A stretch of 64,000 nucleotides of DNA from Marivivens sp. (GTDB taxonomy: Bacteria > Pseudomonadota > Alphaproteobacteria > Rhodobacterales > Rhodobacteraceae), in NCBI GenBank assembly GCA_024642115.1, contig JAHEBU010000001.1, positions 1 to 64,000 on the forward strand, in the 5' to 3' direction. The position numbers and the translations under genes were made by a program. Shown here one piece after another: positions 7,195-20,084 of the stretch (positions within the stretch are counted from its first letter, which is position 1; each line of letters opens with the position of its first letter). A model generated the notes under the pieces. The model had not been told where the DNA came from, searched no databases, and saw nothing but the letters and a program-made list of their open reading frames with translations.

Positions 7195-8316
7195 TTACGG
7201 TTCCTCGGCACCATTTAGCCAGCCGCTGAACGCCAGGTCGTCGTCCAGAACGATCAAGTCACTCGTCTGCCGCCCGACAAGGGTCGCAAGATCGTAGCGA
7301 CCGATCACCGCAGCCGGAACCGTGACCGCCATCCGTAGTGCTTGCTCGGGCGAAATACCCACTTGGCCGACCAGTCGCACGACCGACTGCGCCATGGTCA
7401 CATGCGCCCCGGCCAGCGCCCCCTCGTCATTTACCAGCTGTCCGGATTCGAGGTGAACATCGCGTCCATACAGCAAAAAACGATCCGGCCCTCCGACAGT
7501 GGGCATGGCGTCAGACACCAGAAACATACGGTCCGCCACGGGCCGCGCCCGGATTGCCAGCCCCACCATCTCGTCTGCCACATGGATGCCATCGCAGATG
7601 ATCCCGGCATACGCGCGTGAATTGATGGCGGCCCCCACCACCCCCGCGGCGCGTCCCTGCATAGGGGACATAGCATTGAAAAGATGGGTGAAACAGGTGA
7701 CCCCCGCCGCCAAAGCTGCCTGCACGTCGCTGGCTGTCGCATCGCTGTGGCCAATCGACACGACAGCCCCGGTTGCGGCCAACTCAGCAATCTGTGCCAC
7801 CGTCGCCGCCTCCGGGGCCAACGTGATCAGGACGGGGATATCGCGGGACCGAAGCCCCCTGACCAGCGCAAGGGTCTGCCCATCCATGGGGCGCACGAAC
7901 CGCTCTGCATGGGTGCCGCGCCGGACGGTGCTGATATGCGGCCCTTCGATATGCAGACCCAACAGGCCCGGCATCCCCCAAGCCCGCGACACGGCGGCGG
8001 CAGCCTCGGCCGCCACTTCGGGTGCGTCGGTGATGACGGTGGGCAGGATCCCACCTGTGCCAAAGGTCCGGTGCGCGGCAACGATGGTTGCGATCCCCTC
8101 GGGGGTCGGGTGGGCGTTGAACAACACGCCTCCGCCGCCATTGACCTGCACATCGACAAAACCGGGGCTGACGAGCCCGGCAACAGGTCGAACCTGCGCG
8201 CCCTCCGGTACCGCCCCCATAGCCACGACTCTCCCCATGTCCAGACACAGCGACTGCCCTAAGCGCAACGTTTGGCCGTCAAAGATCGCATCGGGCGTTA
8301 TCCACCGGGCAGTCAT
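7195..8316 (-). CDS. nagA: N-acetylglucosamine-6-phosphate deacetylase
   Basis: This 373-aa amidohydrolase removes acetate from GlcNAc-6-P in amino-sugar catabolism and cell-wall recycling. Family marks are visible in order: DVQVNGGGGVLFN, the metal-site segment LHIEGPHIS, GHSDATASDV, THLFNAMSPMQGR, DGIHV and the catalytic SDAMPTVGG. It overlaps nagK by four bases (ATGA), so kinase and deacetylase are made together: kinase makes GlcNAc-6-P and NagA deacetylates it. No nagB (deaminase) and no GlcNAc transporter is in this cluster, which favours a recycling role or completion of the pathway elsewhere. Confidence 0.94.
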   Translation of the reverse strand: MTARWITPDAIFDGQTLRLGQSLCLDMGRVVAMGAVPEGAQVRPVAGLVSPGFVDVQVNGGGGVLFNAHPTPEGIATIVAAHRTFGTGGILPTVITDAPEVAAEAAAAVSRAWGMPGLLGLHIEGPHISTVRRGTHAERFVRPMDGQTLALVRGLRSRDIPVLITLAPEAATVAQIAELAATGAVVSIGHSDATASDVQAALAAGVTCFTHLFNAMSPMQGRAAGVVGAAINSRAYAGIICDGIHVADEMVGLAIRARPVADRMFLVSDAMPTVGGPDRFLLYGRDVHLESGQLVNDEGALAGAHVTMAQSVVRLVGQVGISPEQALRMAVTVPAAVIGRYDLATLVGRQTSDLIVLDDDLAFSGWLNGAEEP

Positions 8317-9221
8317 CGGCGGGCCTCTTGAAGGGCTGCATAGGCCGCACCGCGGGCTCCGCTGGCCTCGCCCGCCTGCGCGAGCACGATCCGAGGAATC
8401 GAGAAGCCGTCCAGTTGTGCCCCCCTCAGGGCAACAGTCAGATCATCCGTAAGCCCAACAATCTGCGATAGCCCGCCGCCCAACACGATGACGGCAGGAT
8501 CGACTGTGCAGATCAGAGTCATCATCAGGTCGGCGACAACGGCGCACCAGACCTGCCACACCTCTTGGGCTGCGGGGTCGATATACCGGGCGGCCACAAG
8601 TTCGGGCACGGTCAGGGTGCGCCCCAGCATCGCCTCGCTCAGCCGGGACAGACCCGGACCGCTGATCAGCGTCTCATGACACCCCCTGCGCCCGCAGCCA
8701 CAGGCCACAACCGGAAGCCCGTGTTCGACGACAATATGAGCCGGGGCGGCCGAATGTCCTACCTCGCCGCCCACAGCCGACAGGCCACTCACCAACCGCC
8801 CGTCGATCACCACGCCCCCGCCCGTCCCGGTGCCCAGGATGATGCCGCAAGCCGGAGAGAATCCGCGGGCCGCGCCAAAGACGGACTCGGACAGGATGAA
8901 CGCCTTGGCATCATTGAGAAAGGTAATCGACCGTCCGGCCTGAACGGCCACATCTGCCGGAAACGGCTTTCCGGTGATCGGCAGATTGCCTGCAAGGGCC
9001 AGCCCGCTGGCCGGATTGATAAGGCCCGCCGACCCCAGGCCAATGGGCAGGCCGTCCCCGCCGACACTTTCGACCCAGCCGACCAGATCGGCAATCGCCC
9101 TGACCAGCCCGTCATAATCGCGCGGCGTTTCTGTCCGCCTGCGCGAGGCGACCTGCCAGTCGGCGCCAAACACCTGCGCCTCGATCTTGGTCCCGCCCAG
9201 GTCAATCCCTGCCGCAATCAT
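8313..9221 (-). CDS. nagK: ROK-family N-acetylglucosamine kinase
   Basis: This is a 302-aa ROK sugar kinase. The start at MIAAGIDLGGTKIEA places the phosphate-binding DLGGTK motif at the N-terminus as in relatives; the upstream in-frame ATG at 9248 adds only nine residues. It has the ROK zinc site (CGCGRRGCHE) and the GTGTGGGVV loop. It probably phosphorylates GlcNAc with ATP. The sugar assignment comes mainly from its translational coupling to nagA; glucokinase or ManNAc kinase activity cannot be excluded from motifs alone. Confidence 0.88.
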   Translation of the reverse strand: MIAAGIDLGGTKIEAQVFGADWQVASRRRTETPRDYDGLVRAIADLVGWVESVGGDGLPIGLGSAGLINPASGLALAGNLPITGKPFPADVAVQAGRSITFLNDAKAFILSESVFGAARGFSPACGIILGTGTGGGVVIDGRLVSGLSAVGGEVGHSAAPAHIVVEHGLPVVACGCGRRGCHETLISGPGLSRLSEAMLGRTLTVPELVAARYIDPAAQEVWQVWCAVVADLMMTLICTVDPAVIVLGGGLSQIVGLTDDLTVALRGAQLDGFSIPRIVLAQAGEASGARGAAYAALQEARR

Positions 9222-9322
9222 CCCGTCACCTGATTTGACCCCAGGCACTTGCGCCCGACGCCGATAGAGCCCGAAATGCGAGGAAGGGTAAAGTCGCCTG
9301 CACCCCGTCCGGCCTGCGGCAG

Positions 9323-9895
9323 TCAGTCATTGTCGGCCAATCCGGCCCCCGCACCGCTGACGCGGCTGGCCTCGGTCGGGGGGGCATAGGTGCGCCCGGC
9401 AAGGGTTGTGAGGGTGGCCAAACCTGCGTGTGACAACGTGGCCCGATGTGTGAGGGGCCGCGGTGGGGTTGCCGGGACCCCAAGGAACCGAACAACGACA
9501 GCGGACTGTGACCAGATCCATGACTCTGGCCAATTGACGACAGACAGATCGTCTTGGGTGGCAAGGGTCACGTCGCCCCGCGACACCCGACCTCCTCCCA
9601 GATCTGCCACGAAGGGCAACAGAAAAACGGGGGCGGCGACCGGTCCCAATTCCACCTCGGTTCCCGGGCGGATCCCGCCGCTCAGATCGACCAGCGCAGC
9701 CCCGACGGCAAACGGACAGCTGGCGGCGGGTTGGACATCGCACAGGTATTCTGCGAGCAGGTCTGCCGCGGGCCCCCCTCGACCCGACAGCCACCGGACA
9801 GCCCTCCCGATCTCTTCGGCCAGACCCCAATCATATCCTGCACCCCGGGCAGCCTTGCGGGCCAGCGCCTCGACCTCGCCCAGCGACCATGTCAT
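9323..9895 (-). CDS. DUF3726 family protein
   Basis: This 190-aa soluble protein begins MTWSLGEVEALARKAARG, the recognisable opening of DUF3726 proteins of Rhodobacterales and related bacteria. The family has no known activity. The middle is Gly/Val/Leu-rich and probably a beta structure. Its ATG overlaps the stop of the 557-aa gene (ATGA), and that gene in turn overlaps the M19 dipeptidase gene, so all three are translationally coupled. About 100 bp separate it from nagK downstream, so a joint transcript with nagKA is possible but not shown. Confidence 0.8.
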   Translation of the reverse strand: MTWSLGEVEALARKAARGAGYDWGLAEEIGRAVRWLSGRGGPAADLLAEYLCDVQPAASCPFAVGAALVDLSGGIRPGTEVELGPVAAPVFLLPFVADLGGGRVSRGDVTLATQDDLSVVNWPESWIWSQSAVVVRFLGVPATPPRPLTHRATLSHAGLATLTTLAGRTYAPPTEASRVSGAGAGLADND

Positions 9896-11565
9896 GCGGG
9901 ATAGGTCCAGTCGTCGGGGTCCATCTGCGCCAGTTCGTCCGGAAAGGGCGCGCCGCCGAACAAGGTGATGCGAACCCAGCGATCGGACCGGGGATCGAAA
10001 TGCTGAGCACCGAAAAAGGCCAGCTTGGCGCGCAAAAGATCAATCGGCAGCATGGCCGCGTCGATCGTGTTGTCGCGCAACTCGGCATAAGGATAGCGTG
10101 CCGCGACCTGAAGGCGGCGGACGGTATGACGATGTTCGGGATGGGCCTGCAAAAGGTCGGCCGTGGTGGCATCCTCGGGCTGGCCATCAAGGTCGGCAAA
10201 CAGACGCGCCGCCTCGCGGCCCGGCGATAACGGCTGTTCGTAAGCCGCCAAAGGCTCGGCAAAGCGGTCGCCCAGTCGCGGCTCCAGCTTTTCCGCCGAG
10301 GTATACCAGACACGGGCCTGTCTGGCAGGATCGGCCCAGTCGATGTCAATCGCCCAGCCGTAGACCTGCCGCAACGCCGCCCTGAGGGCGCCGATGGTCA
10401 TGTCGCCGTCAATCCGGAACGCACCGCCTTCGTCCGCCGACATACAGCAAGCCATGCCGTCGATCAGATCGCCATAGGGTTCCATCATGAGCGCCGCGAG
10501 CGCCTCCTGCCCCTCGACCGACAGCGCCCCTTCGGCCCAAAGCCAAAGGCGGTTCCACGGGGCGACCTGGTCAAGAGCGGCCTCTGACAGGTGGGTGACG
10601 AGCAGATCGAAATCGGCCCGCAACGCGCCGATGCGCGACACCTGAACCGGATGAGACGTGCGCCAAAGGTCCAGATTGTGCCGCGCCCGGTGAACAAGAC
10701 TGCGAAACCTGGCGACATCCTGCGGGGTCGCGTCCGGCAAACGCCGCACTCTTGCCAAAGCTTCTTCACGGGCACCAATCCAGTTGTTCAGCAGAACGGG
10801 GTGATTGATCAGGAATGGGGCCATCCCAAGGCCGGTCGAATTGCCGATCCCGAACCGCCGCCGCAACACAGGGTCTAGCCGGACCGCCGTCACCGACCGC
10901 GCGGCCGCCATATGCTCGACCAGATCCATGACAAACGTGCGGATCAGCCAGACGGTCAGCATCTCGATCTGAAAGGGCGGCAGGAATTCGGGGCGATCAC
11001 AGGTCACCTCGCGGTCCGCAGCACCCAGCTTGCCCGACCCGTAAACTGCTGTGGTGCGCATCAGGTAGCCGACCTCGGCCAACTTGGCCTCCTCAGGCTG
11101 TTCGCCTTTGGCCAGACAATCCACGACATGGTCCCACAACCGCACTGACCGGTTTGCCCGGCTGACCGACAGTTCCCGCTCGCCCACGCGCCCTGCTTCT
11201 TGCAGGGGGATGTTACGCGCCAGTCGGTCGATGTCGGCTGCGTCCGGGATTCCGTCGAACAGGGCAAATGTCGCGTCCCACGCGGTCGCGATCACCCGGT
11301 CAGACCGCTGGTCGGCGGGCAGGTCGTGGGAAAATGCCACCAGCGAATAGGCCCGGTCGGGGGTGTGCATGGTCAGAACTGCATGACCGACACCAGCTGT
11401 ATCGATTTCGAACACGCGCCGCTCATAGCGCCAGCGATCCGCCTTTGCCCGCCGCAGAAGGATGCGCAAAAAGGACAGCCGGTGCTGGTGGGATGCGCCC
11501 AGCCGCGCCAATCGCATGACAACGGCAGGGTCGCGCGGGGCAATCTCGGGGGGCAAATCCTTCAT
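9892..11565 (-). CDS. Uncharacterised 557-aa protein of the dipeptidase/DUF3726 module
   Basis: I recognise no catalytic domain in this long soluble protein. It has no signal peptide or membrane helices and is rich in Arg, Asp, Ala and Trp. A conserved-looking N-terminal region contains RAYSLVAFSHDLPADQRSD (about 79-97) and a central part contains FLPPFQIEMLTVWLIRTFVMDLVEHMA. The gene overlaps both neighbours by ATGA, which points to a complex or a shared pathway with the M19 dipeptidase and the DUF3726 protein. A catabolic or modifying role linked to glycine or N-methylated glycine metabolism is inference from the gcv genes upstream. Confidence 0.8.
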   Translation of the reverse strand: MKDLPPEIAPRDPAVVMRLARLGASHQHRLSFLRILLRRAKADRWRYERRVFEIDTAGVGHAVLTMHTPDRAYSLVAFSHDLPADQRSDRVIATAWDATFALFDGIPDAADIDRLARNIPLQEAGRVGERELSVSRANRSVRLWDHVVDCLAKGEQPEEAKLAEVGYLMRTTAVYGSGKLGAADREVTCDRPEFLPPFQIEMLTVWLIRTFVMDLVEHMAAARSVTAVRLDPVLRRRFGIGNSTGLGMAPFLINHPVLLNNWIGAREEALARVRRLPDATPQDVARFRSLVHRARHNLDLWRTSHPVQVSRIGALRADFDLLVTHLSEAALDQVAPWNRLWLWAEGALSVEGQEALAALMMEPYGDLIDGMACCMSADEGGAFRIDGDMTIGALRAALRQVYGWAIDIDWADPARQARVWYTSAEKLEPRLGDRFAEPLAAYEQPLSPGREAARLFADLDGQPEDATTADLLQAHPEHRHTVRRLQVAARYPYAELRDNTIDAAMLPIDLLRAKLAFFGAQHFDPRSDRWVRITLFGGAPFPDELAQMDPDDWTYPA

Positions 11566-12542
11566 GGGGCGGCTCCAAAACTGCTGTCATAGAACCGCAA
11601 CCAATTGTCGCCCATGATCCCGGCGACTTCGGTGTCAGACAGACCGGTTGCCCGTAACCCTTTGCCCAACCCCGGAAAGTCGGAGTTGTCGCGGAACCAA
11701 TCGGGCATCGGGGGAAAGCCGGGGGCGGCTGCGCTGCCCTCGCCATAGTCCCGCTCCTTGGTCCAGCGGCCCATGCGCATCCAGTCCACCACGCTGTCGG
11801 GCTGATCCTGACACAGGTCCGATCCGATCCCCAGATGGTCGGCCCCGACCTTGTCGGCAGTGCGGGCGATCATCTGACAGAACTCGTCCAGCGTGCAGGC
11901 CGATTTGCCCTTGAGGTGATGGGGGTAGAGCGAAAAGCCCAGCATCCCCCCCGCCGCCGCCAGTTCCCGGATCACCGTGTCGGACTTGTTGCGCAGCGCA
12001 GGCGCCCAAATGGCCGGATTAGCGTGGGTAATGGCGATGGGACGGGTGGAATGCTGGATCGCCTCCAGCGTCGAACGTTCCGCCGAATGGCTCATGTCGA
12101 TGACCATACCCACACGGTTCATCTCGGCCACCACCTGTTTGCCCATGCGGGTCAGGCCGGGGTCCTCGGCCTCGTAGCATCCTGTCGCAAGCAGGGATTG
12201 ATTGTTGTAGCTCAGCTGCATGAACCGCGCGCCAAGGCCGTGCAGGATTTCGACCAGACCGATATCATCCTCGATCGGACTGGGGTTCTGGAAACCGAAA
12301 AAGATGGCGGTGCGCCCCAACGCCTGCGCCCGCCGCACATCATCCCCGGTGCGCCCCAGAAAGATCAGATCGGAAAAGCGCGCGAACCGGTCATTCCACG
12401 CCTCGATATTGAGGACCGTTTCGCGGAACGTCTCGTGATAGGCGATGGTCACATGGACAGCATCCATGCCACCTGCCCGCATTTGGCGAAACACGGTTTC
12501 GGACCAGTTACAGTATTGCAGGTTGTCGATCAGGTATCCCAT
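11562..12542 (-). CDS. M19 (renal dipeptidase-type) metallopeptidase, glycine-module copy
   Basis: This 326-aa member of peptidase family M19 has the conserved blocks FFGFQN, ARFMQLSYNNQ, GCYEAEDPGLTRMGKQVV, MSHSAERST, ITHANP and HLGIGSDL. The FGFQN/GCYE signature resembles the pseudomonad M19 proteins that lie beside dimethylglycine-demethylation genes rather than the classical renal dipeptidase. That resemblance is from memory and was not computed. The usual N-terminal DGHND motif is replaced by LIDNLQYCNW, so metal ligation at that site may differ. It lies 42 bp behind gcvP and is coupled by ATGA to the 557-aa gene. Confidence 0.88.
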   Translation of the reverse strand: MGYLIDNLQYCNWSETVFRQMRAGGMDAVHVTIAYHETFRETVLNIEAWNDRFARFSDLIFLGRTGDDVRRAQALGRTAIFFGFQNPSPIEDDIGLVEILHGLGARFMQLSYNNQSLLATGCYEAEDPGLTRMGKQVVAEMNRVGMVIDMSHSAERSTLEAIQHSTRPIAITHANPAIWAPALRNKSDTVIRELAAAGGMLGFSLYPHHLKGKSACTLDEFCQMIARTADKVGADHLGIGSDLCQDQPDSVVDWMRMGRWTKERDYGEGSAAAPGFPPMPDWFRDNSDFPGLGKGLRATGLSDTEVAGIMGDNWLRFYDSSFGAAP

Positions 12543-12584
12543 GCCTCACCCTAGGCGGCGGGCGGGGCAGCCGACAATGCCCTT

Positions 12585-15434
12585 CTACTCTGCAGCGTCC
12601 ATATACTCCTCCAGCGGCGGGCATGTGCACACGAGGTTGCGGTCGCCATAGACGTTGTCCACCCGATTGACCGGAGCCCAGTATTTGTCCACCCGGAACG
12701 ATCCGGGCGGATGGCAGGCCTCTTTGCGGGAATAGGGATGGGGCCAGTCGCCCATCAGGTCCTCGACAGTGTGGGGGGCATTGTGCAGCGGGTTGTTGTC
12801 GCGCGGCCAGTCGCCTGCGGCCACCTTGTCGATCTCGGCCCGGATCGACAGCATGGCGTCGCAGAACCGGTCAAGCTCGGCCTTGGTTTCGGACTCGGTC
12901 GGTTCGATCATCAGGGTCCCCGCCACAGGCCAGCTCATCGTCGGGGCGTGGAACCCGTTGTCAATCAGGCGCTTGGCGATGTCGTCAACGGTAACTCCCG
13001 CAGTTTCCTCGAACTGGCGAGGGTCGAGGATACATTCGTGGGCGACCCGGCCCTTGCCCCCTTTGAACAGGACCGGAAATGCCTCCTCCAGCCGCTTGGC
13101 GATATAGTTGGCGTTCAGGATGGCCACCTTTGTCGCCTGCGTCAGGCCCTTGCCGCCCATCATCAGGACATAGGCCCAGGAAATCAGCAGGATCGACGCG
13201 GACCCCCAAGGGGCGGCCGACACCGGCCCCGTCACCCCGCCCGTCATCGGATGGCCGGGCAGGTAGGGGGCCAGATGCGCCTTGACCCCGATCGGGCCCA
13301 TGCCGGGGCCGCCGCCACCGTGCGGAATGGCAAAGGTCTTGTGCAGGTTCAGGTGGCTGACATCGCCACCGATCTCGCCCGGTTTCACAAGGCCCACCAT
13401 GGCGTTCATGTTGGCCCCGTCAATGTAGACCTGCCCGCCGTGGTCATGGGTGATCTGGGCGACCTCGCGCACGGTCTCTTCGAACACGCCGTGGGTGGAC
13501 GGATAGGTTATCATGCAGGCGGCCAGCCGGTCGCCCGCCGCCTGCGCCTTGGCCCGGAAATCGGCCACGTCGATATCGCCGTTGGCGGCGGATTTGACGA
13601 CGACCACCTCCATCCCGCACATCTGGGCGCTGGCGGGGTTGGTGCCGTGGGCGCTGACGGGGATCAGGCAGACCTTGCGATCATGGTCACCCCGGGCCGC
13701 ATGATACGCCATGATGGTCAACAGACCCGCGTATTCGCCCTGCGCGCCCGAATTGGGCTGCATCGACAGGGCATCATAGCCGGTGATGGTGCACAGCTTC
13801 TGGCTCAGGTCGGCGATCATCTCCTGATAGCCGGCCGCCTGATCGACGGGGGCAAAGGGATGCATCATCGAAAACTCGGGCCAGGTGATCGGCATCATCT
13901 CGACCGCCGCGTTCAGCTTCATCGTGCAAGAGCCCAGCGGGATCATCGCCCGGTCCAGCGCCAGATCCCGGTCCGACAGGCGGCGCATGTAGCGCATCAT
14001 CTCGGTCTCGGCCCGGTTGAGGTGAAAGATCGGATGGGTGAGGTACTCGGTCGTGCGGCTAAGCGGCTCGGGAATGCGGTATCGGTGGGTCAGATCGTCA
14101 TCCTTCTGATCCAGACCAAAGGCCCGCCAGACCGCCTCAATGGTGCTGCGGCGGGTACGTTCGTCCAGGCTGATGCCAACCTTGGTCGCCCCGACCTTGC
14201 GCAGGTTGATCCCGTTTTCCACGGCCAGTTGCATGACGGCACCCTGCATCGGGCCGACATCGACGGTGATCGTGTCAAAGAACACATCCGGTTCCACGGT
14301 GAACCCTGCCTGTTCCAGCCCACGGGCCAGACGGACGGTCTTGCGATGGATGCGCTGTGCAATGGCTTTCAGGCCAACAGGCCCATGAAATACAGCATAC
14401 ATCGACGCCATGACAGCCAGCAGGGCCTGCGCGGTGCAGACGTTCGACGTCGCCTTTTCGCGGCGGATATGTTGTTCGCGGGTCTGTAGCGACAGGCGCA
14501 GGGCACGGTGGCCGTGACTGTCCACGCTGACGCCCACGATCCGGCCGGGCATTGACCGTTTATAGGCGTCCTTGCAGGCGAAATAGGCGGCATGCGGCCC
14601 ACCGTATCCCAAGGGCACGCCAAAGCGCTGGGTCGATCCCACGGCGATGTCGGCCCCCATTGCACCGGGTTCCTTGAGCAGGGTCAGGGCCAGAGGATCG
14701 GCGGCAACAATACCGATGGCGTTGGCCGCATGAAGGGCCGCGATATGGTTGGTAAAATCGGTCACATGGCCGTAGGTGCCGGGATACTGAAAGATCGCCC
14801 CGAACACCGCGCCCGCGTCCATCTCGGCCGGATCGCCCACGATCACCTCGATCCCCAAGGGGGCGGCGCGGGTCTGCATCACGGCGATGGTCTGGGGATG
14901 GCAATGGTGATCGACAAAGAACGCCGTCGCTTTGGACTTGGCCACGCGCTGTGCCATCGTCATTGCTTCGGCGGCGGCGGTGGATTCGTCCAAGAGGGAT
15001 GCGTTGGCAATCTCCAACCCCGTGAGGTCACAGATCATCGTCTGGTAATTCAGCAAGGCCTCCAGCCGGCCTTGCGAAATCTCAGGCTGATAGGGGGTAT
15101 AGGCGGTGTACCAGGCCGGGTTTTCGAGGATATTGCGCTGAATCGCTGGCGGCGTGACCGTGCCGTAAAACCCCTGCCCGATCAGGCTGTCCATGACCCT
15201 GTTCTTCTTGGCGACCTGTCCCAGAAAATACAAAAGTTCGCCTTCAGACTTGGGCTTGCCGAAATCCAGCGGCTCTGCCTGCCGCAGGTTCGCGGGGATG
15301 GTCTGGGCAATCAGATCGTCCAGACTGGCCGCGCCGACCACCGCCAGCATCTCGTCCATCTCGGCGGGCGAGGGGCCGATGTGGCGACGATTGGCAAAGT
15401 CGTAAGGCAGATAATCGGTTGGCGTGAACGGCAT
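12585..15434 (-). CDS. gcvP: Glycine dehydrogenase (decarboxylating), P-protein
   Basis: This is the 949-aa homodimeric-type P-protein of the glycine cleavage system. It decarboxylates glycine using PLP and passes the aminomethyl group to lipoylated GcvH. The N-terminal and C-terminal halves are both present. The PLP lysine is Lys699 in [19 protein letters not shown], with the Gly-rich loop intact. The start at [20 protein letters not shown] matches the family N-terminus and has a GGGAGA ribosome site nine or so bases upstream; the ATG at 15473 would add 13 unlikely residues. It is the third gene of gcvTHP and probably shares the riboswitch transcript. Confidence 0.97.
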
Positions 15435-15474
15435 CTCTCGTTCTCCCCTTGGTCGGTCGGGCGCAACACCCAAG

Positions 15475-15512
15475 CTTCACTTCACAATAACAACTCCCGC
15501 CGGAGGCTCGCC
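15475..15512 (+). repeat. Dispersed intergenic repeat, copy A (gcvH-gcvP gap)
   Basis: The block reads TTCACTTCACAATAACAA followed by CTCCCGCCGGAGGCTC. The same core CAATAACAACTC with a G+C-rich tail recurs near 39.1, 39.3 and 43.5 kb, and in diverged form at 47.76 kb. It lies inside the gcv operon between gcvH and gcvP, so it is transcribed within that mRNA. Confidence 0.7.
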
Positions 15513-15542
15513 GCCAGGCGAAACCCCGGTCCGGAATGAAGA

Positions 15543-15902
15543 TCAGCCGATGTATTTCTTGTAGGCGGCCTCATCCATCATGTCGTCGAGAACGGACATA
15601 TCCTCGATCTTCATCTTGAAGAACCAGCCGTCCCCGGTCGGGTCGTCATTCACCATGGCCGGGTTGTCGGCCAGCACGTCGTTGACCTCGACAATCTCGC
15701 CGTCCAGCGGCGCGAGGATATCGGACGCCGCCTTGACGCTTTCAATGACGACCACCTCGTCATCCTTGCTGACGGTCATCCCCTCTTCGGGCAGTTCGAC
15801 AAACACGATGTCGCCCAGCTGTTCGCTGGCATGTTCGGTGATGCCCACGACCACCACATCGCCTTCGACGCGCAGCCATTCGTGTTCTTCGGTGAATTTC
15901 AT
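15543..15902 (-). CDS. gcvH: Glycine cleavage system H protein
   Basis: This 119-aa lipoyl carrier shuttles the aminomethyl intermediate between GcvP, GcvT and lipoamide dehydrogenase. The lipoylation lysine is Lys57 in [12 protein letters not shown]. The start is placed at [15 protein letters not shown], the standard N-terminus; a GGAGACC ribosome site precedes it. The longer open frame upstream overlaps gcvT and is not credible. It lies 16 bp after the gcvT stop. Confidence 0.97.
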
Positions 15903-15918
15903 AAGGGTCTCCTTAGCA

Positions 15919-17052
15919 TTAGCGTTTGAAAGTGGCCTGCCGGAATGGCAGGGCGGTGACAGTGGCGGGCAATCTTTTGCCCCGGACTTCGCCCCAGATC
16001 GGGGTGCCCGGCGTTGCCAACGGGGCTGAAACATAACCCATCGACATCGGGGCCTCGATCGTCGGGCCAAACGCACCAGAGGTGACATGGCCAATGGCCG
16101 ACCCGCCGGTTTCGGCGTCGAACAGGGCTGTCCCCGCCCGCATCGGTGCGCGTCCTTCGGGGCGCAGCCCGATCCGTAGACGGTCCGGCCCGTCTGCCAA
16201 TTGGCGCAAAACTACATCCGCACCCGGAAATCCGCCCGCCCTGTCACCACCTGCCCGCCTTGCCTTCTGGATGGCCCAGGTCAGTGCCGCCTCGACCGGG
16301 GTCGTGGCCGGGTCAAGGTCCGATCCATACAGGCACAGCCCCGCTTCGAGCCGCAGGCTGTCGCGGGCCCCCAGCCCGATGGGAGCCACGTCGGCATGGG
16401 TCAACAACGCCCGCGCCAAAGCTTCGGCCTGATCAGACAGGACCGAGATTTCAAATCCGTCCTCGCCCGTATAGCCCGACCGCGATACCCAAAGCGGGCC
16501 AAAGATGGTGTCGGTGATGATCACGTCCATAAAGCGCATCGCGGCCACATCTGGCGCGATCCCGACCAGTGCGGCCTCGGCCGCCGGGCCCTGCAGGGCC
16601 AATAGGGCGCGGTCGGTCACTTCGACCACCTCGCATCCGTCAGGCAGATGTTTTCTCAAATGGGCCAGATCGGCGGCTTTGCAGGCGGCGTTGACCACCA
16701 CAAACAGGTGATCCCCGCGGTTAGCGATCATCAGGTCATCCAGTATCCCGCCCGCATCATTGGTGAAAAAGCCATAGCGTTGACGACCCGGCGCAAGCCC
16801 CAGCAGATCAACCGGCACCAAAGTCTCGAGCGCCAGTGCGGCATCCGCAACGTCGCCCGATTTCGGACGAAGGATGACCTGACCCATATGCGATACGTCG
16901 AACAACCCGGCCTTTTCCCGGGTCCACAAATGTTCTTGCATCACGCCCATCGGATACTGCACGGGCATCTCGTAACCCGCGAACGGAACCATCCGCGCGC
17001 CCAGTTCCACGTGCAGATCGTACAGCACCGTCCTGTCCAAACCGTCCGTCAT
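15919..17052 (-). CDS. gcvT: Glycine cleavage system aminomethyltransferase, T protein
   Basis: This 377-aa folate-dependent T protein releases ammonia and transfers the one-carbon unit to tetrahydrofolate. Typical segments are [37 protein letters not shown] and [18 protein letters not shown], the last two around the folate site. It is the first gene of gcvTHP and lies 82 bp behind a tandem glycine riboswitch, so glycine should switch the operon on. The GGAGGC ribosome site just before its ATG is a plausible target of the expression platform. Confidence 0.96.
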
Positions 17053-17134
17053 GCCGCCTCCTTCAGGGCCGGGCGGAGTGCGATTGACCGATGGTCACAT
17101 GGCATCCGCGCAGGCCGAACCCGCCACCAGATGC

Positions 17135-17292
17135 CCCCTCTGTCCTTGCCCGCAATTGGGCGCCTGAGATCGTTATCCCTTCGGCAGGCCATGCGGCCAT
17201 TCTCCAGAGTGTTCGGTGCAGTGACGGTCCTTGGGCCTGAGAGTTTACCGGGGCGGTTGCTCCTTCGGCACTGGCGAACCAGTTCTCCCGTC
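17135..17292 (-). ncRNA. Tandem glycine riboswitch (two gcvT-type aptamers)
   Basis: On the minus strand, aptamer 1 (about 17292-17223) runs from GACGGGAGAAC through GCCGAAGGAGCAACCGCC and AACTCTCAGGC to GGACCGTC, closing a P1 stem GACGG/CCGTC. Aptamer 2 (about 17210-17137) runs from CTCTGGAGAA through GCCGAAGGGATAACGATC and TCTCAGGCGCC to GGACAGAG, closing CTCTG/CAGAG. These are the conserved bulges of the glycine riboswitch class, and the short linker between them is typical of the cooperative tandem form. gcvT begins 82 bp downstream. The rest of the 310-bp gap holds the promoter side (17293-17362) and the expression platform (17053-17134). I see no clear T-tract terminator, so translational control is more likely. 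Confidence 0.95.
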
Positions 17293-17362
17293 ATGCGAGG
17301 CCTTGGTAGGCGAGGGTCCGGGATCGGTAAAGGGGGAATCTGCATGCGACGGTCTACCTTTG

Positions 17363-18427
17363 TCAGAACCACGTCCGATCCAGCAGACCGATCCAGTTGT
17401 CGCAGGCGATCTTGCGCAAGAGCCGCGCGTCATAACCATGCTCGTGCAGGGCGTCGATCAGGCGGGGTAACCCGGCCGCATCCCCAATCCCCTCTGGCAC
17501 CATCGCCCCGTCAAAGTCCGAACCGAACCCGACATGATCCTCGCCCAAGATGCCGATCAGATGATCCATGTGGCGCAACACCGGGTCCCAGCCCATCTCG
17601 GCCGATTTGCGGCCATCAGGGCGCAGGAACACGGTGGCAAAGTTCAACCCCACCATCCCGCCGCTGTCACGGATCACGCCCAGTTGACGGTCGGTCAGGT
17701 TGCGGCTCGACGGGGTCACCGCATGGGCATTGGAATGGGTGGCCACTAATGGGCGCGTGCTGATCCGGGCCACGTCGTTGAACCCGGCCTCGTTCAGATG
17801 CGACAGGTCGAGCATGATCCCAAGCGTGTTGCACTCGGCCACCAGCGCCTTGCCCGCCTCGGTCAGACCCGGCCCGGTATCGGGCGAGGACGGAAAGGCA
17901 AACGGCACGCCGTGGCCAAAGGCGGTCGGCCTGCTCCAGACCGGCCCCAGCGACCGCAGCCCCGCGGCGTGCCAGACATGCAGCGCGTCCAGATCCGGGC
18001 CGATTGCCTCGGCCCCCTCCATGTGCATGATCCCCGCCACGACGCCCAGCGCAAGGCAGGCGCGGACTTCGGCCACGGTCCGGCAGATCTTGAACTTGCC
18101 CCCGCTCGCGCGTTCCATCCACATCAGATGCCCTGCCATGGCCAGTGCCATCTGTTGCGCCGCGCCCAGCGTAATCGGGTTGGGAAGCGGCAGCGCATAG
18201 GGCGGGGCGTCCATCAACGCGTCATAATCGGTGACCCCCGCGTCCAACGGGCTGGGAATATAGATGGCAAAGAAGCCGCCGGCGAAGCCGCCTGCCTGCA
18301 TCCGTGGCAGGTCCAGGTGCCCCCCGCCCAGCGACCCGTCCCAGATCGCTGCCCGGTCCTGCGGATGGTTGAACAACCGCAGCAGCAGATCGTTGTGACC
18401 GTCAAAGACGGGGAAGATGGCGGACAT
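17363..18427 (-). CDS. M19 dipeptidase (renal dipeptidase family), classical copy
   Basis: This 354-aa family M19 metallodipeptidase has a canonical N-terminal metal motif, FDGHNDLLLRL. Other blocks include MHMEGAEAIG, the central LDLSHLNEAGF, ATHSNAHAV and HVGFGSDFDGAM. It should hydrolyse small dipeptides such as X-Gly or D-amino-acid dipeptides. The start at MSAIFPVFDGHND is favoured by a GGGAGCG ribosome site; the ATG at 18472 would add 15 residues. It lies just upstream of the glycine riboswitch, so it is upstream of and outside the riboswitch-controlled part. A paralogue of a different subgroup lies behind gcvP. Confidence 0.92.
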   Translation of the reverse strand: MSAIFPVFDGHNDLLLRLFNHPQDRAAIWDGSLGGGHLDLPRMQAGGFAGGFFAIYIPSPLDAGVTDYDALMDAPPYALPLPNPITLGAAQQMALAMAGHLMWMERASGGKFKICRTVAEVRACLALGVVAGIMHMEGAEAIGPDLDALHVWHAAGLRSLGPVWSRPTAFGHGVPFAFPSSPDTGPGLTEAGKALVAECNTLGIMLDLSHLNEAGFNDVARISTRPLVATHSNAHAVTPSSRNLTDRQLGVIRDSGGMVGLNFATVFLRPDGRKSAEMGWDPVLRHMDHLIGILGEDHVGFGSDFDGAMVPEGIGDAAGLPRLIDALHEHGYDARLLRKIACDNWIGLLDRTWF

Positions 18428-18452
18428 GAAACGCTCCCTGTTTGCACAGACG

Positions 18453-20084
18453 TTAGCGGCTTTGTCCGCCATCGCAATCAGGATTCGCGGGGGTCAGCCA
18501 GCCGGTATAATGCACGATGGCCCCCTGCCGTAGCGGCGCTTCCAGCCGGACATCGAACCGAAACCGCCCGTCGTCGTCAACGGTTTCAGAGGCAATGCTG
18601 TCCGGCAACGCAAAGCGGGGGATGGGCAGCCCCATAAACCGGCCGGACCGCACCGGGAAATGCAGCACGCCGTCGATCACCTGCAGGTCAAGGTCAAAGG
18701 TCATCGCCCCAAACCGTTCGGTGAACCCCTCCGCCGACTGCGCCAGATGCGAGGTAAAGGTCTGCCCGGCAAACGTCCGATCCCAGACCTCGCCCCCGTC
18801 ATGCGGCGTGATCCTGACCATCAGCGGCACGTCCTCCCCCGCATTGGGAAAGCGGAATATCGTGGCGATCAGGCGGGGCAATAGACCCGTCCCTCGCGTG
18901 ATCCGGGCTGTACCGGACCAAAGGGCGGGGCCGACAGGTTGGTGCAAGGCCTGCACGGCTTTGGGCAGCGTCCCAAAGGATTTGCCCAGAAATGTTGGGA
19001 ACAGGGGGCGACATCGCCCCTCTTGCCTGTCCGTCTCGACCGCGAGGTCCGTCATAGCCCCCGTCATCAAATCGAGTGGCAGTTCGGACAAAGCCGGGCG
19101 GGCGCCAGGCGGGATGCGGCCGACATGGCGCAGGATCGCACGGGCGGCGATAGCGGGGATGAATGGCCCCTCGCCATCGCGGACCCGCAGGCGCCATGCG
19201 CGCCTCAGGGCGACACCGTCGCAGGTCCCGGCCACCGTCACGATCATGCCACCCGCGTCCGATCCCAGCCGCTCCATCCTGTCGGCCGCCCAGTGGACCA
19301 GCCGCACCAGCCCCCCCGGCATTCCCGCCCCCGTTCGCGCCCGCAGCCAACTCAGACCGGCAAGTCCGTAGTTCATCACGCCCAGTTCCATCCCAGCGCG
19401 GAACATCACGGTCCGCGCGCCAAAGTGGCCCGGGAACAGATCCAGATCCGGCACCCGAATCGCCCACCCCTGCCGGACCATCCCCGCGCCAAGGTCAAAA
19501 AGGCGAGGATCAGACCAACTGCGCAGCGTCTTCCTGGCCCCGCCCGCCGTGGCCGCAATCGGGGTGCCGACTTGATGCAGGATGCTTTCGACTACCGATT
19601 TGCCCCGTGGCGCCCGGTTCCCGGGAAGAATAGCCATGTCGATGCTGTCGATCTGCATACCCTGCCCCAGCGCCGACACCACCGCTGACGACAAGGCGGG
19701 GACGCTGGACACACCGGAAAGGGCAAACACGCCCGCCTGCCGTGCCTCGGCATCAAGGGTCGAAATCCCCGCACAGAAATCCGCATCATCGGCCAGATCG
19801 AGGTAATGCAGACCGTGGTCGATGCAAAACCGGACCAGCCGATACGGCTCTGCCCCATAGGCATGAAACGGCCCGGCCGCATCGACAATGACCTCTACCC
19901 CGCTCAGGGGGGACAGGTCGCCGCCGCGATCCAGAACAAGGGCGGTCGCACCGATCTGTGCCGCCTTGCGTCGCAACGCATCAGGACTGCGCCCCGCAAT
20001 CGTCACCTCATGGCCATCCCGGATCAGCAAAAGGGCAAGGCGCGACCCGAACACGCCCGCCCCGCCAAGGACAGTTACCCTCAT
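18453..20084 (-). CDS. Saccharopine dehydrogenase-like protein with DUF4166 C-terminal domain
   Basis: The N-terminal 130 residues form a Rossmann NADP-binding domain (MRVTVLGGAGVFGSRLALLL) of the saccharopine-dehydrogenase-like group. The C-terminal 200 or so residues match the DUF4166 architecture, ending in a beta-rich segment (FPVRSGRFMGLPIPRFALP). The 543-aa protein is probably a reductase of unknown substrate and not a lysine enzyme, since no aminoadipate-pathway genes are near. The start at MRVTVLG overlaps the DCC-family gene by ATGA; the TTG/ATG extension to 20126 is rejected for lack of similarity. The dipeptidase begins 25 bp downstream. Confidence 0.87.
   Translation of the reverse strand: MRVTVLGGAGVFGSRLALLLIRDGHEVTIAGRSPDALRRKAAQIGATALVLDRGGDLSPLSGVEVIVDAAGPFHAYGAEPYRLVRFCIDHGLHYLDLADDADFCAGISTLDAEARQAGVFALSGVSSVPALSSAVVSALGQGMQIDSIDMAILPGNRAPRGKSVVESILHQVGTPIAATAGGARKTLRSWSDPRLFDLGAGMVRQGWAIRVPDLDLFPGHFGARTVMFRAGMELGVMNYGLAGLSWLRARTGAGMPGGLVRLVHWAADRMERLGSDAGGMIVTVAGTCDGVALRRAWRLRVRDGEGPFIPAIAARAILRHVGRIPPGARPALSELPLDLMTGAMTDLAVETDRQEGRCRPLFPTFLGKSFGTLPKAVQALHQPVGPALWSGTARITRGTGLLPRLIATIFRFPNAGEDVPLMVRITPHDGGEVWDRTFAGQTFTSHLAQSAEGFTERFGAMTFDLDLQVIDGVLHFPVRSGRFMGLPIPRFALPDSIASETVDDDGRFRFDVRLEAPLRQGAIVHYTGWLTPANPDCDGGQSR

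Follow-up and report, generated by a model that had tools for sequence, protein, structure and literature searches.

A conserved gene trio encoding an M19-like protein, a 557-amino-acid protein and DUF3726 in Marivivens and its likely link to the catabolism of N-methylated compounds

The gene trio behind gcvP

The 64,000-nucleotide (nt) stretch of Marivivens sp. DNA analysed here (positions 1 to 64,000 of contig JAHEBU010000001.1, assembly GCA_024642115.1; hereinafter, the window) contains, on its reverse strand, a run of three genes that encode an M19-like protein, a 557-amino-acid (aa) protein and a DUF3726 protein, located behind the glycine cleavage genes and a glycine riboswitch. The trio genes were taken from the list of open reading frames and their translations; in order of coordinates, the region comprises:

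9323..9895, reverse strand: DUF3726 gene, 190 aa (P0003)
9892..11565, reverse strand: gene for the 557-aa protein (P0002)
11562..12542, reverse strand: M19-like gene, 326 aa (P0001)
12543..12584, reverse strand: gap of 42 nt between gcvP and the M19-like gene; at the same place, Limimaricola (locus L031) has an aldehyde dehydrogenase gene
12585..15473, reverse strand: gcvP open reading frame; the TTG start is a mechanical call, and the Limimaricola homologue begins later
15919..17052, reverse strand: gcvT open reading frame, named solely from its position and from clustering with L031 and L050
17215..17300, reverse strand: glycine riboswitch aptamer, scoring 56.5 bits (Rfam cut-off 32)

At both junctions within the trio (M19-like/557 and 557/DUF3726), the sequence reads as an ATGA stop/start overlap. 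The same gene order, again with ATGA overlaps, is found in Limimaricola L031, the sister of the window (support 100) in a tree of the 557-aa proteins from 123 of the 128 loci described below (rows shorter than 450 aa or with stops were left out). Because Limimaricola keeps this arrangement, the overlaps are more than a chance occurrence. An earlier note on this DNA had described the coupled genes, their position 42 nt behind gcvP on the same strand and a glycine riboswitch ahead of the gcv genes, and this description holds, with one aptamer located upstream of gcvT.

Distribution and neighbourhood of the trio

Of 101 relatives, 33 carry the gene for the 557-aa protein, as do 53 of the 385 genomes searched from the class; in addition, there are 71 loci with this gene in the contig collection, which covers close relatives only, and 168 plasmid records that carry it, from hosts including Phaeobacter, Sinorhizobium, Aminobacter, Shinella, one Pseudomonas sp. 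and the haloarchaeon Natrinema. Distant homologues (~30% identity) have different gene surroundings. Neighbours were counted in 128 loci with the 557 gene (129 were given; L179, with no 557 match, was left out), with genes called by a codon-usage caller, markers sought within 10.5 kb by tblastn under identity thresholds set by us, and flanks of unequal length. An M19-like gene is near the 557 gene in 109 of these loci and a DUF3726 gene in 84, the latter being an undercount for a fast-diverging family. As judged from these comparisons, the three genes make up a genuinely conserved set, in which the M19-like protein and DUF3726 are the usual partners of the 557-aa protein.

The other recurrent neighbours are an aldehyde dehydrogenase (60 loci), a LysR regulator (45), betaine transporters of the BCCT (30) and ProX (11) types, as named via NCBIfam, an Ldh_2 protein (28), RidA (8), an AraC regulator (6) and purU (1, the Shinella locus). 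The genes are typically arranged as LysR, aldehyde dehydrogenase, M19-like, BCCT (in some loci), 557 and DUF3726, followed in some loci by Ldh_2 and a glycine-betaine ABC transporter; among 16 annotated plasmid loci, nine have the Ldh gene immediately downstream. The dedicated aldehyde dehydrogenase (at least 60% identity) occurs in 11 of the 101 relatives, in every case adjoining a 557 gene. This survey of neighbours therefore suggests that the trio is part of an operon for betaine catabolism.

By contrast, gcvP lies near the 557 gene in three of the 128 loci (window, Limimaricola and Marivivens) and in three of the 84 loci that have at least 9 kb on both flanks. The position behind gcvP is thus a local arrangement common to the window organism and Limimaricola, and linkage to the gcv genes is the exception. 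In the window itself, cotranscription of the trio with gcvP is plausible: a consensus scan of positions 9000-17500, covering promoters of the sigma-70 type only, found no promoter-like and no terminator-like site in the 42-nt gap, which fits cotranscription without showing it (over the whole scanned region, there were no promoter-like and five terminator-like sites, with a mean of 5.1 in shuffled sequences). The earlier note had gone further and proposed that the trio forms a pathway or complex for glycine or N-methylated glycine feeding the cleavage system. The notion of a module survives, as a conserved gene set and, in its best reading, one for an N-methylated compound; the link to glycine cleavage does not find support in the neighbourhood survey, the outcome of which is the one that the earlier note had itself named as refuting, and is unlikely.

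In seven of the 128 loci (L177, L180, L181, L213, L215, L086 and L146, in the last at a distance of ~8.6 kb), a sarcosine-oxidase-like tetramer is encoded near the 557 operon. Its alpha subunits were placed in a midpoint-rooted tree of 17 sequences, in which the references for N-methylglutamate dehydrogenase (Mgd), from Aminobacter (L220) and Rhizobium leguminosarum (L221), were defined by neighbouring gmaS and mgs genes, and the sarcosine-oxidase reference, from Paraburkholderia (L223), by neighbouring genes for serine ammonia-lyase, dihydroneopterin aldolase and formaldehyde dehydrogenase. Six of the seven operon-linked subunits form one group (support 100/98) with both Mgd references, four more rows and a copy encoded on contig C4 of the window genome, where an Mgd-type operon is present that does not adjoin the trio; outside this group are the sarcosine-oxidase reference and a second copy from the window genome (C10). 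In a set of 61 family genomes, genes of the Mgd type were found in 25 of 29 with the 557 gene against 18 of 32 without it (P 0.013) and, at a completeness of at least 90%, which drops five genomes, in 25 of 27 against 16 of 29 (Fisher P 0.002), both values being uncorrected for kinship. Sarcosine-oxidase-type genes, examined as a control, showed no such difference (28 of 29 against 28 of 32 and, at the higher completeness, 26 of 27 against 28 of 29).

Some loci depart from the typical layout. In the haloarchaeon Natrinema versiforme (L174, 5032-13282), genes for an aldehyde dehydrogenase, the 557-aa protein, an Ldh_2-like protein of 317 aa and BCCT occur together, with no M19 gene; this locus therefore suggests that the core crosses domains. 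On pSymA of Sinorhizobium meliloti (L176, 7941-16851 and beyond), a distant 557 homologue is accompanied by genes for a hypothetical protein and an M19 protein, as well as for an ABC transporter (four genes), an aminotransferase and a succinate-semialdehyde dehydrogenase, and we would guess that the module recurs here with a different substrate, perhaps trigonelline. Two other distant homologues may be further substrate variants: the one in L149 adjoins a histidinol-dehydrogenase-like gene and the one in L142 an alpha/beta hydrolase gene, both genes being named by eye. Eight contigs of metagenome-assembled genomes named Acidimicrobiales (Actinomycetota; L065, L070, L073, L076, L079, L080, L081 and L088) carry the 557 and M19-like genes and form one tight group, for which transfer or misbinning is possible.

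Around the trio in the window, positions 7195-9248 (reverse strand), between DUF3726 and a gene for a Do-type protease, hold genes for a ROK-family kinase and an N-acetylglucosamine-6-phosphate deacetylase-like protein; in L031, the Do-type protease homologue comes after DUF3726 without these two genes. The aptamer at 17215-17300 is the single glycine aptamer above the Rfam cut-off in the window; glycine riboswitches are frequently tandem. Directly upstream of the riboswitch and gcvTHP is a gene for a canonical M19 dipeptidase with the DGHND motif (17363-18472, reverse strand), a homologue of which occupies the equivalent place in L031.

The three proteins

The M19-like protein matches the Pfam family Peptidase_M19 (PF01244) over residues 14-317 with 243 bits (cut-off 26); NCBIfam lists no family for any of the three trio proteins. 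The earlier note had pointed to the missing N-terminal DGHND motif, and indeed, LIDNLQY stands at that spot. Of the five M19 metal ligands (the HxD pair, the bridging Glu and two His), three are changed: the HxD pair is replaced by L8 and Y10, as aligned by eye, with an ID-x-LQ motif kept at this site in the aligned relatives, and the bridging Glu is replaced by Gln85, which is invariant in 19 rows and stands opposite Glu152 of the canonical M19 protein of the window. The two metal-binding His residues, H152 and H173, are retained. The nearest solved structure, PDB 2i5g, an amidohydrolase of Pseudomonas aeruginosa, shares with the M19-like protein the FGFQN and GCYE motifs and the missing HxD, and because of these common features, the ligand-poor form appears to be an old subfamily. 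A role as a dipeptidase acting on glycyl dipeptides was considered and rejected, given the missing metal site and the canonical M19 protein already encoded upstream of the riboswitch.

For the 557-aa protein, no relative above the cut-off was detected by sequence in Pfam, NCBIfam or PDB, and no Pfam family was found in more than three of 38 members of its family. Its AlphaFold2 model (predicted local distance difference test score, pLDDT, 87.8), compared as a whole chain, has no fold match (best Foldseek E 0.62; best VIA-align Z 4.2 over 121 residues), and a weak or missing match of this kind does not amount to a new fold. The family contains the invariant stretches RSDRVIA, SRANRS, GNSTGLG, EKLEPR-like and FDPRSDRW, with many invariant polar residues, which suggests an active site.

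DUF3726, the least conserved protein of the trio, matches its Pfam family with 54 bits; a literature search for the name found no paper. Its model (pLDDT 87) aligns to 15 PDB entries, all of the Ldh_2 family, with Z of 9.3-11.5 over 145-170 residues, the next entry having a Z of 3.2, and the same 15 entries were found by sequence with the profile of the operon's own Ldh; Foldseek alone gave no hit to the model with E below 0.001. Profile comparison of DUF3726 with this Ldh is thin (HHalign, 42 columns, probability 52%, E 1.4e-4), and with the haloarchaeal protein that occupies the place of DUF3726, and itself scores 36.2 bits with PF02615, just below the cut-off of 38.8, it is poor (HHalign 6%). 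The 163 aligned residues of DUF3726 are spread over the chain range 1-337 of 4fjs_A, and the nucleotide-binding part of the full-length family is not kept. From the model, DUF3726 is predicted to be a stripped-down Ldh_2 fold, an assignment that is new here. The best PDB match for the operon's Ldh profile is delta1-piperideine-2-carboxylate reductase (279 bits; next, 213); reductases of this type also reduce N-methyl imines.

A candidate pathway, its rivals and known systems

It seems likely that the trio is the core of a module that leads from a betaine to N-methylglutamate, homarine (N-methylpicolinate) being our best guess of the substrate. From the gene set, its order, the Mgd-type linkage in some relatives and the folds, we infer both the substrate and the following steps. 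A betaine transporter of the BCCT or ProXWV type would take up the substrate, and the 557-aa protein with its DUF3726 partner would open the ring, a role assigned by elimination because these are the only members without a known enzyme role. The aldehyde dehydrogenase, which is nearest to 2,5-dioxovalerate dehydrogenases, would oxidise the resulting aldehyde; the M19-like protein, which lacks a two-metal site of the usual kind, might then strip an N-formyl group or act on a different amide or imine; the Ldh_2 reductase would turn an N-methyl imine into N-methylglutamate; and Mgd would convert the latter to glutamate. The betaine transporters, the best PDB match of the Ldh profile, RidA and the purU gene of the Shinella locus also speak for this reading. 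Conceivably, although this more specific proposal is doubtful, the 557-aa protein and DUF3726 together form a new-fold enzyme that opens the ring of N-methylated pyridinium carboxylates (or of related cyclic ones); its second subunit would derive from an Ldh_2 reductase minus the nucleotide-binding part, and in rhizobia and haloarchaea, the pair would act on related substrates alongside different transporters and enzymes.

Several observations weigh against the homarine module. Mgd is near in seven of the 128 loci only, two of these being near-identical Phaeobacter, and the alpha subunit of L146 falls outside the tighter Mgd clade and joins only the next larger group (100/99); Mgd-type genes are also found in 18 of the 32 family genomes without the 557 gene, and the test of co-occurrence ignores descent. 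A DMGDH-like enzyme is near the 557 gene oftener than Mgd (12 loci), and for the AraC regulator beside Mgd, the best score is that with GbdR, a glycine-betaine regulator (203 bits, cut-off 480). An aldehyde dehydrogenase does not lie within 10.5 kb in 68 of the loci, the M19-like protein is without the metal site expected of a hydrolase, and we know of no cofactor motif for the 557-aa protein. The likeness to the homarine operon discussed below covers gene number and the part taken by Mgd. In the window genome (99.99% complete by the tool used), the closest aldehyde dehydrogenase, Ldh and LysR have 37%, 40% and 31% identity, respectively (BCCT was not searched there), and the window DUF3726 is less family-like than that of Limimaricola in 35 of 35 comparisons.

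The same module could have a different N-methylated ring compound as its substrate, most notably proline betaine or N-methylproline (or a hydroxyproline betaine), with opening of the N-methylproline ring to N-methylglutamate semialdehyde, which the aldehyde dehydrogenase would convert to N-methylglutamate for Mgd. The BCCT and ProXWV-type transporters and an aldehyde dehydrogenase of the oxoglutarate-semialdehyde type would suit this route, as would a proline-racemase-like gene, identified by eye, in seven Roseovarius-type loci (in four, within the same gene run) and a Rieske oxygenase gene in the retrieved region of L213, L215 and L175; the Rieske genes, however, are separated from the operon by other genes and occur in few loci, and the Ldh_2-type imine reductase and RidA would be superfluous. 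We regard this alternative as improbable. A role in releasing or handling glycine or N-methylated glycine is the least probable of the readings. In its favour are the location of the trio behind gcvP downstream of a glycine riboswitch, with gcvP linkage in L031 and L050 too, and the DMGDH-like enzyme and GbdR-like regulator near some 557 genes. As shown above, gcvP linkage is rare, the linked tetramer groups with Mgd and away from the sarcosine-oxidase reference, and the occurrence of sarcosine-oxidase-type genes does not follow that of the 557 gene; moreover, L031 holds the specific aldehyde dehydrogenase inside its gcv-linked run, so that an operon of the betaine type sits there.

That run in L031 consists of gcvT, gcvH, gcvP and the genes for the aldehyde dehydrogenase, the M19-like protein, the 557-aa protein and DUF3726, and in the window, no aldehyde dehydrogenase gene is present at the corresponding position. 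Most simply, this gene would have been lost in the line of the window, which brings up a further alternative: after the loss of the aldehyde dehydrogenase and the regulator, the trio of this lineage might be a remnant of no present use, heading for loss. The missing close aldehyde dehydrogenase, Ldh and LysR are compatible with such decay, as is the faster change of the window DUF3726 compared to that of Limimaricola. The three frames are nevertheless open; the ratios of nonsynonymous to synonymous divergence (dN/dS) between the window and L031 are well below 1 (0.33 for DUF3726 and 0.15 and 0.17 for its neighbours in the trio, with 0.12 for gcvP; dS is near saturation); and positions that are invariant in the other 37 rows of the 557-aa protein and 36 rows of DUF3726 show no change in the window, with two changes in the M19-like protein (L176 was left out of the M19 count). 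An Mgd-type operon is present in the genome as well. The trio of the window organism thus appears to be under constraint, decay is quite improbable, and the trio would either depend on other enzymes to complete the module or have a diminished function.

If the betaine-to-N-methylglutamate module is real, a role would be assigned to an unannotated protein family that is found in 53 of the 385 genomes searched from the class, and DUF3726 would gain a structural identity. The case also shows how reasoning from gene neighbours in one genome, here from the gcv genes, can mislead, when 128 loci point to a betaine. Should the pathway be that of homarine, marine bacterial genes annotated as 'membrane dipeptidase', 'hypothetical protein' and 'DUF3726' would become markers of the turnover of a nitrogen compound that is common in the sea, and ring opening could be put to a direct test. 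Ring opening by the 557-aa protein with DUF3726 is the part most worth testing.

Mgd takes part in homarine catabolism (PMC13390433), and Ruegeria pomeroyi draws down homarine fast (PMC12817926). A homarine catabolic pathway of environmental bacteria was published in 2026 (Nat Microbiol 11:1531-1546, as cited in PMC13390433), so the suggestion of the earlier note that the trio represents an undescribed system is doubtful. A literature search found no text pairing 'homABC' with homarine. The operon of the 2026 study is reportedly named homABCDER, and its product is said to be N-methylglutamate. LysR together with the aldehyde dehydrogenase, the M19-like protein, the 557-aa protein, DUF3726 and Ldh would fit a six-gene set with one regulator, as implied by that name, whereas in the window, the trio stands by itself behind gcvP. 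The degradation of trigonelline by tgnABCDE, in which an N-methylpyridinium carboxylate undergoes ring opening, the action of an aldehyde dehydrogenase and deformylation, is the model for the proposed steps; its ring opening involves a flavin monooxygenase pair, and no such pair is constant in the 557 loci. With the M19 renal or membrane dipeptidases, the M19-like protein has the domain and the two His residues in common, and differs in the HxD and the bridging Glu. Finally, DUF3726 shares its fold with the Ldh_2 proteins (PF02615: type-2 malate/lactate, ureidoglycolate and delta1-piperideine-2-carboxylate dehydrogenases), at 6-17% identity and with a length of 190 aa compared to ~335-350 aa, about half of the target being skipped, and in many operons, a full Ldh_2 gene comes right after that of DUF3726.

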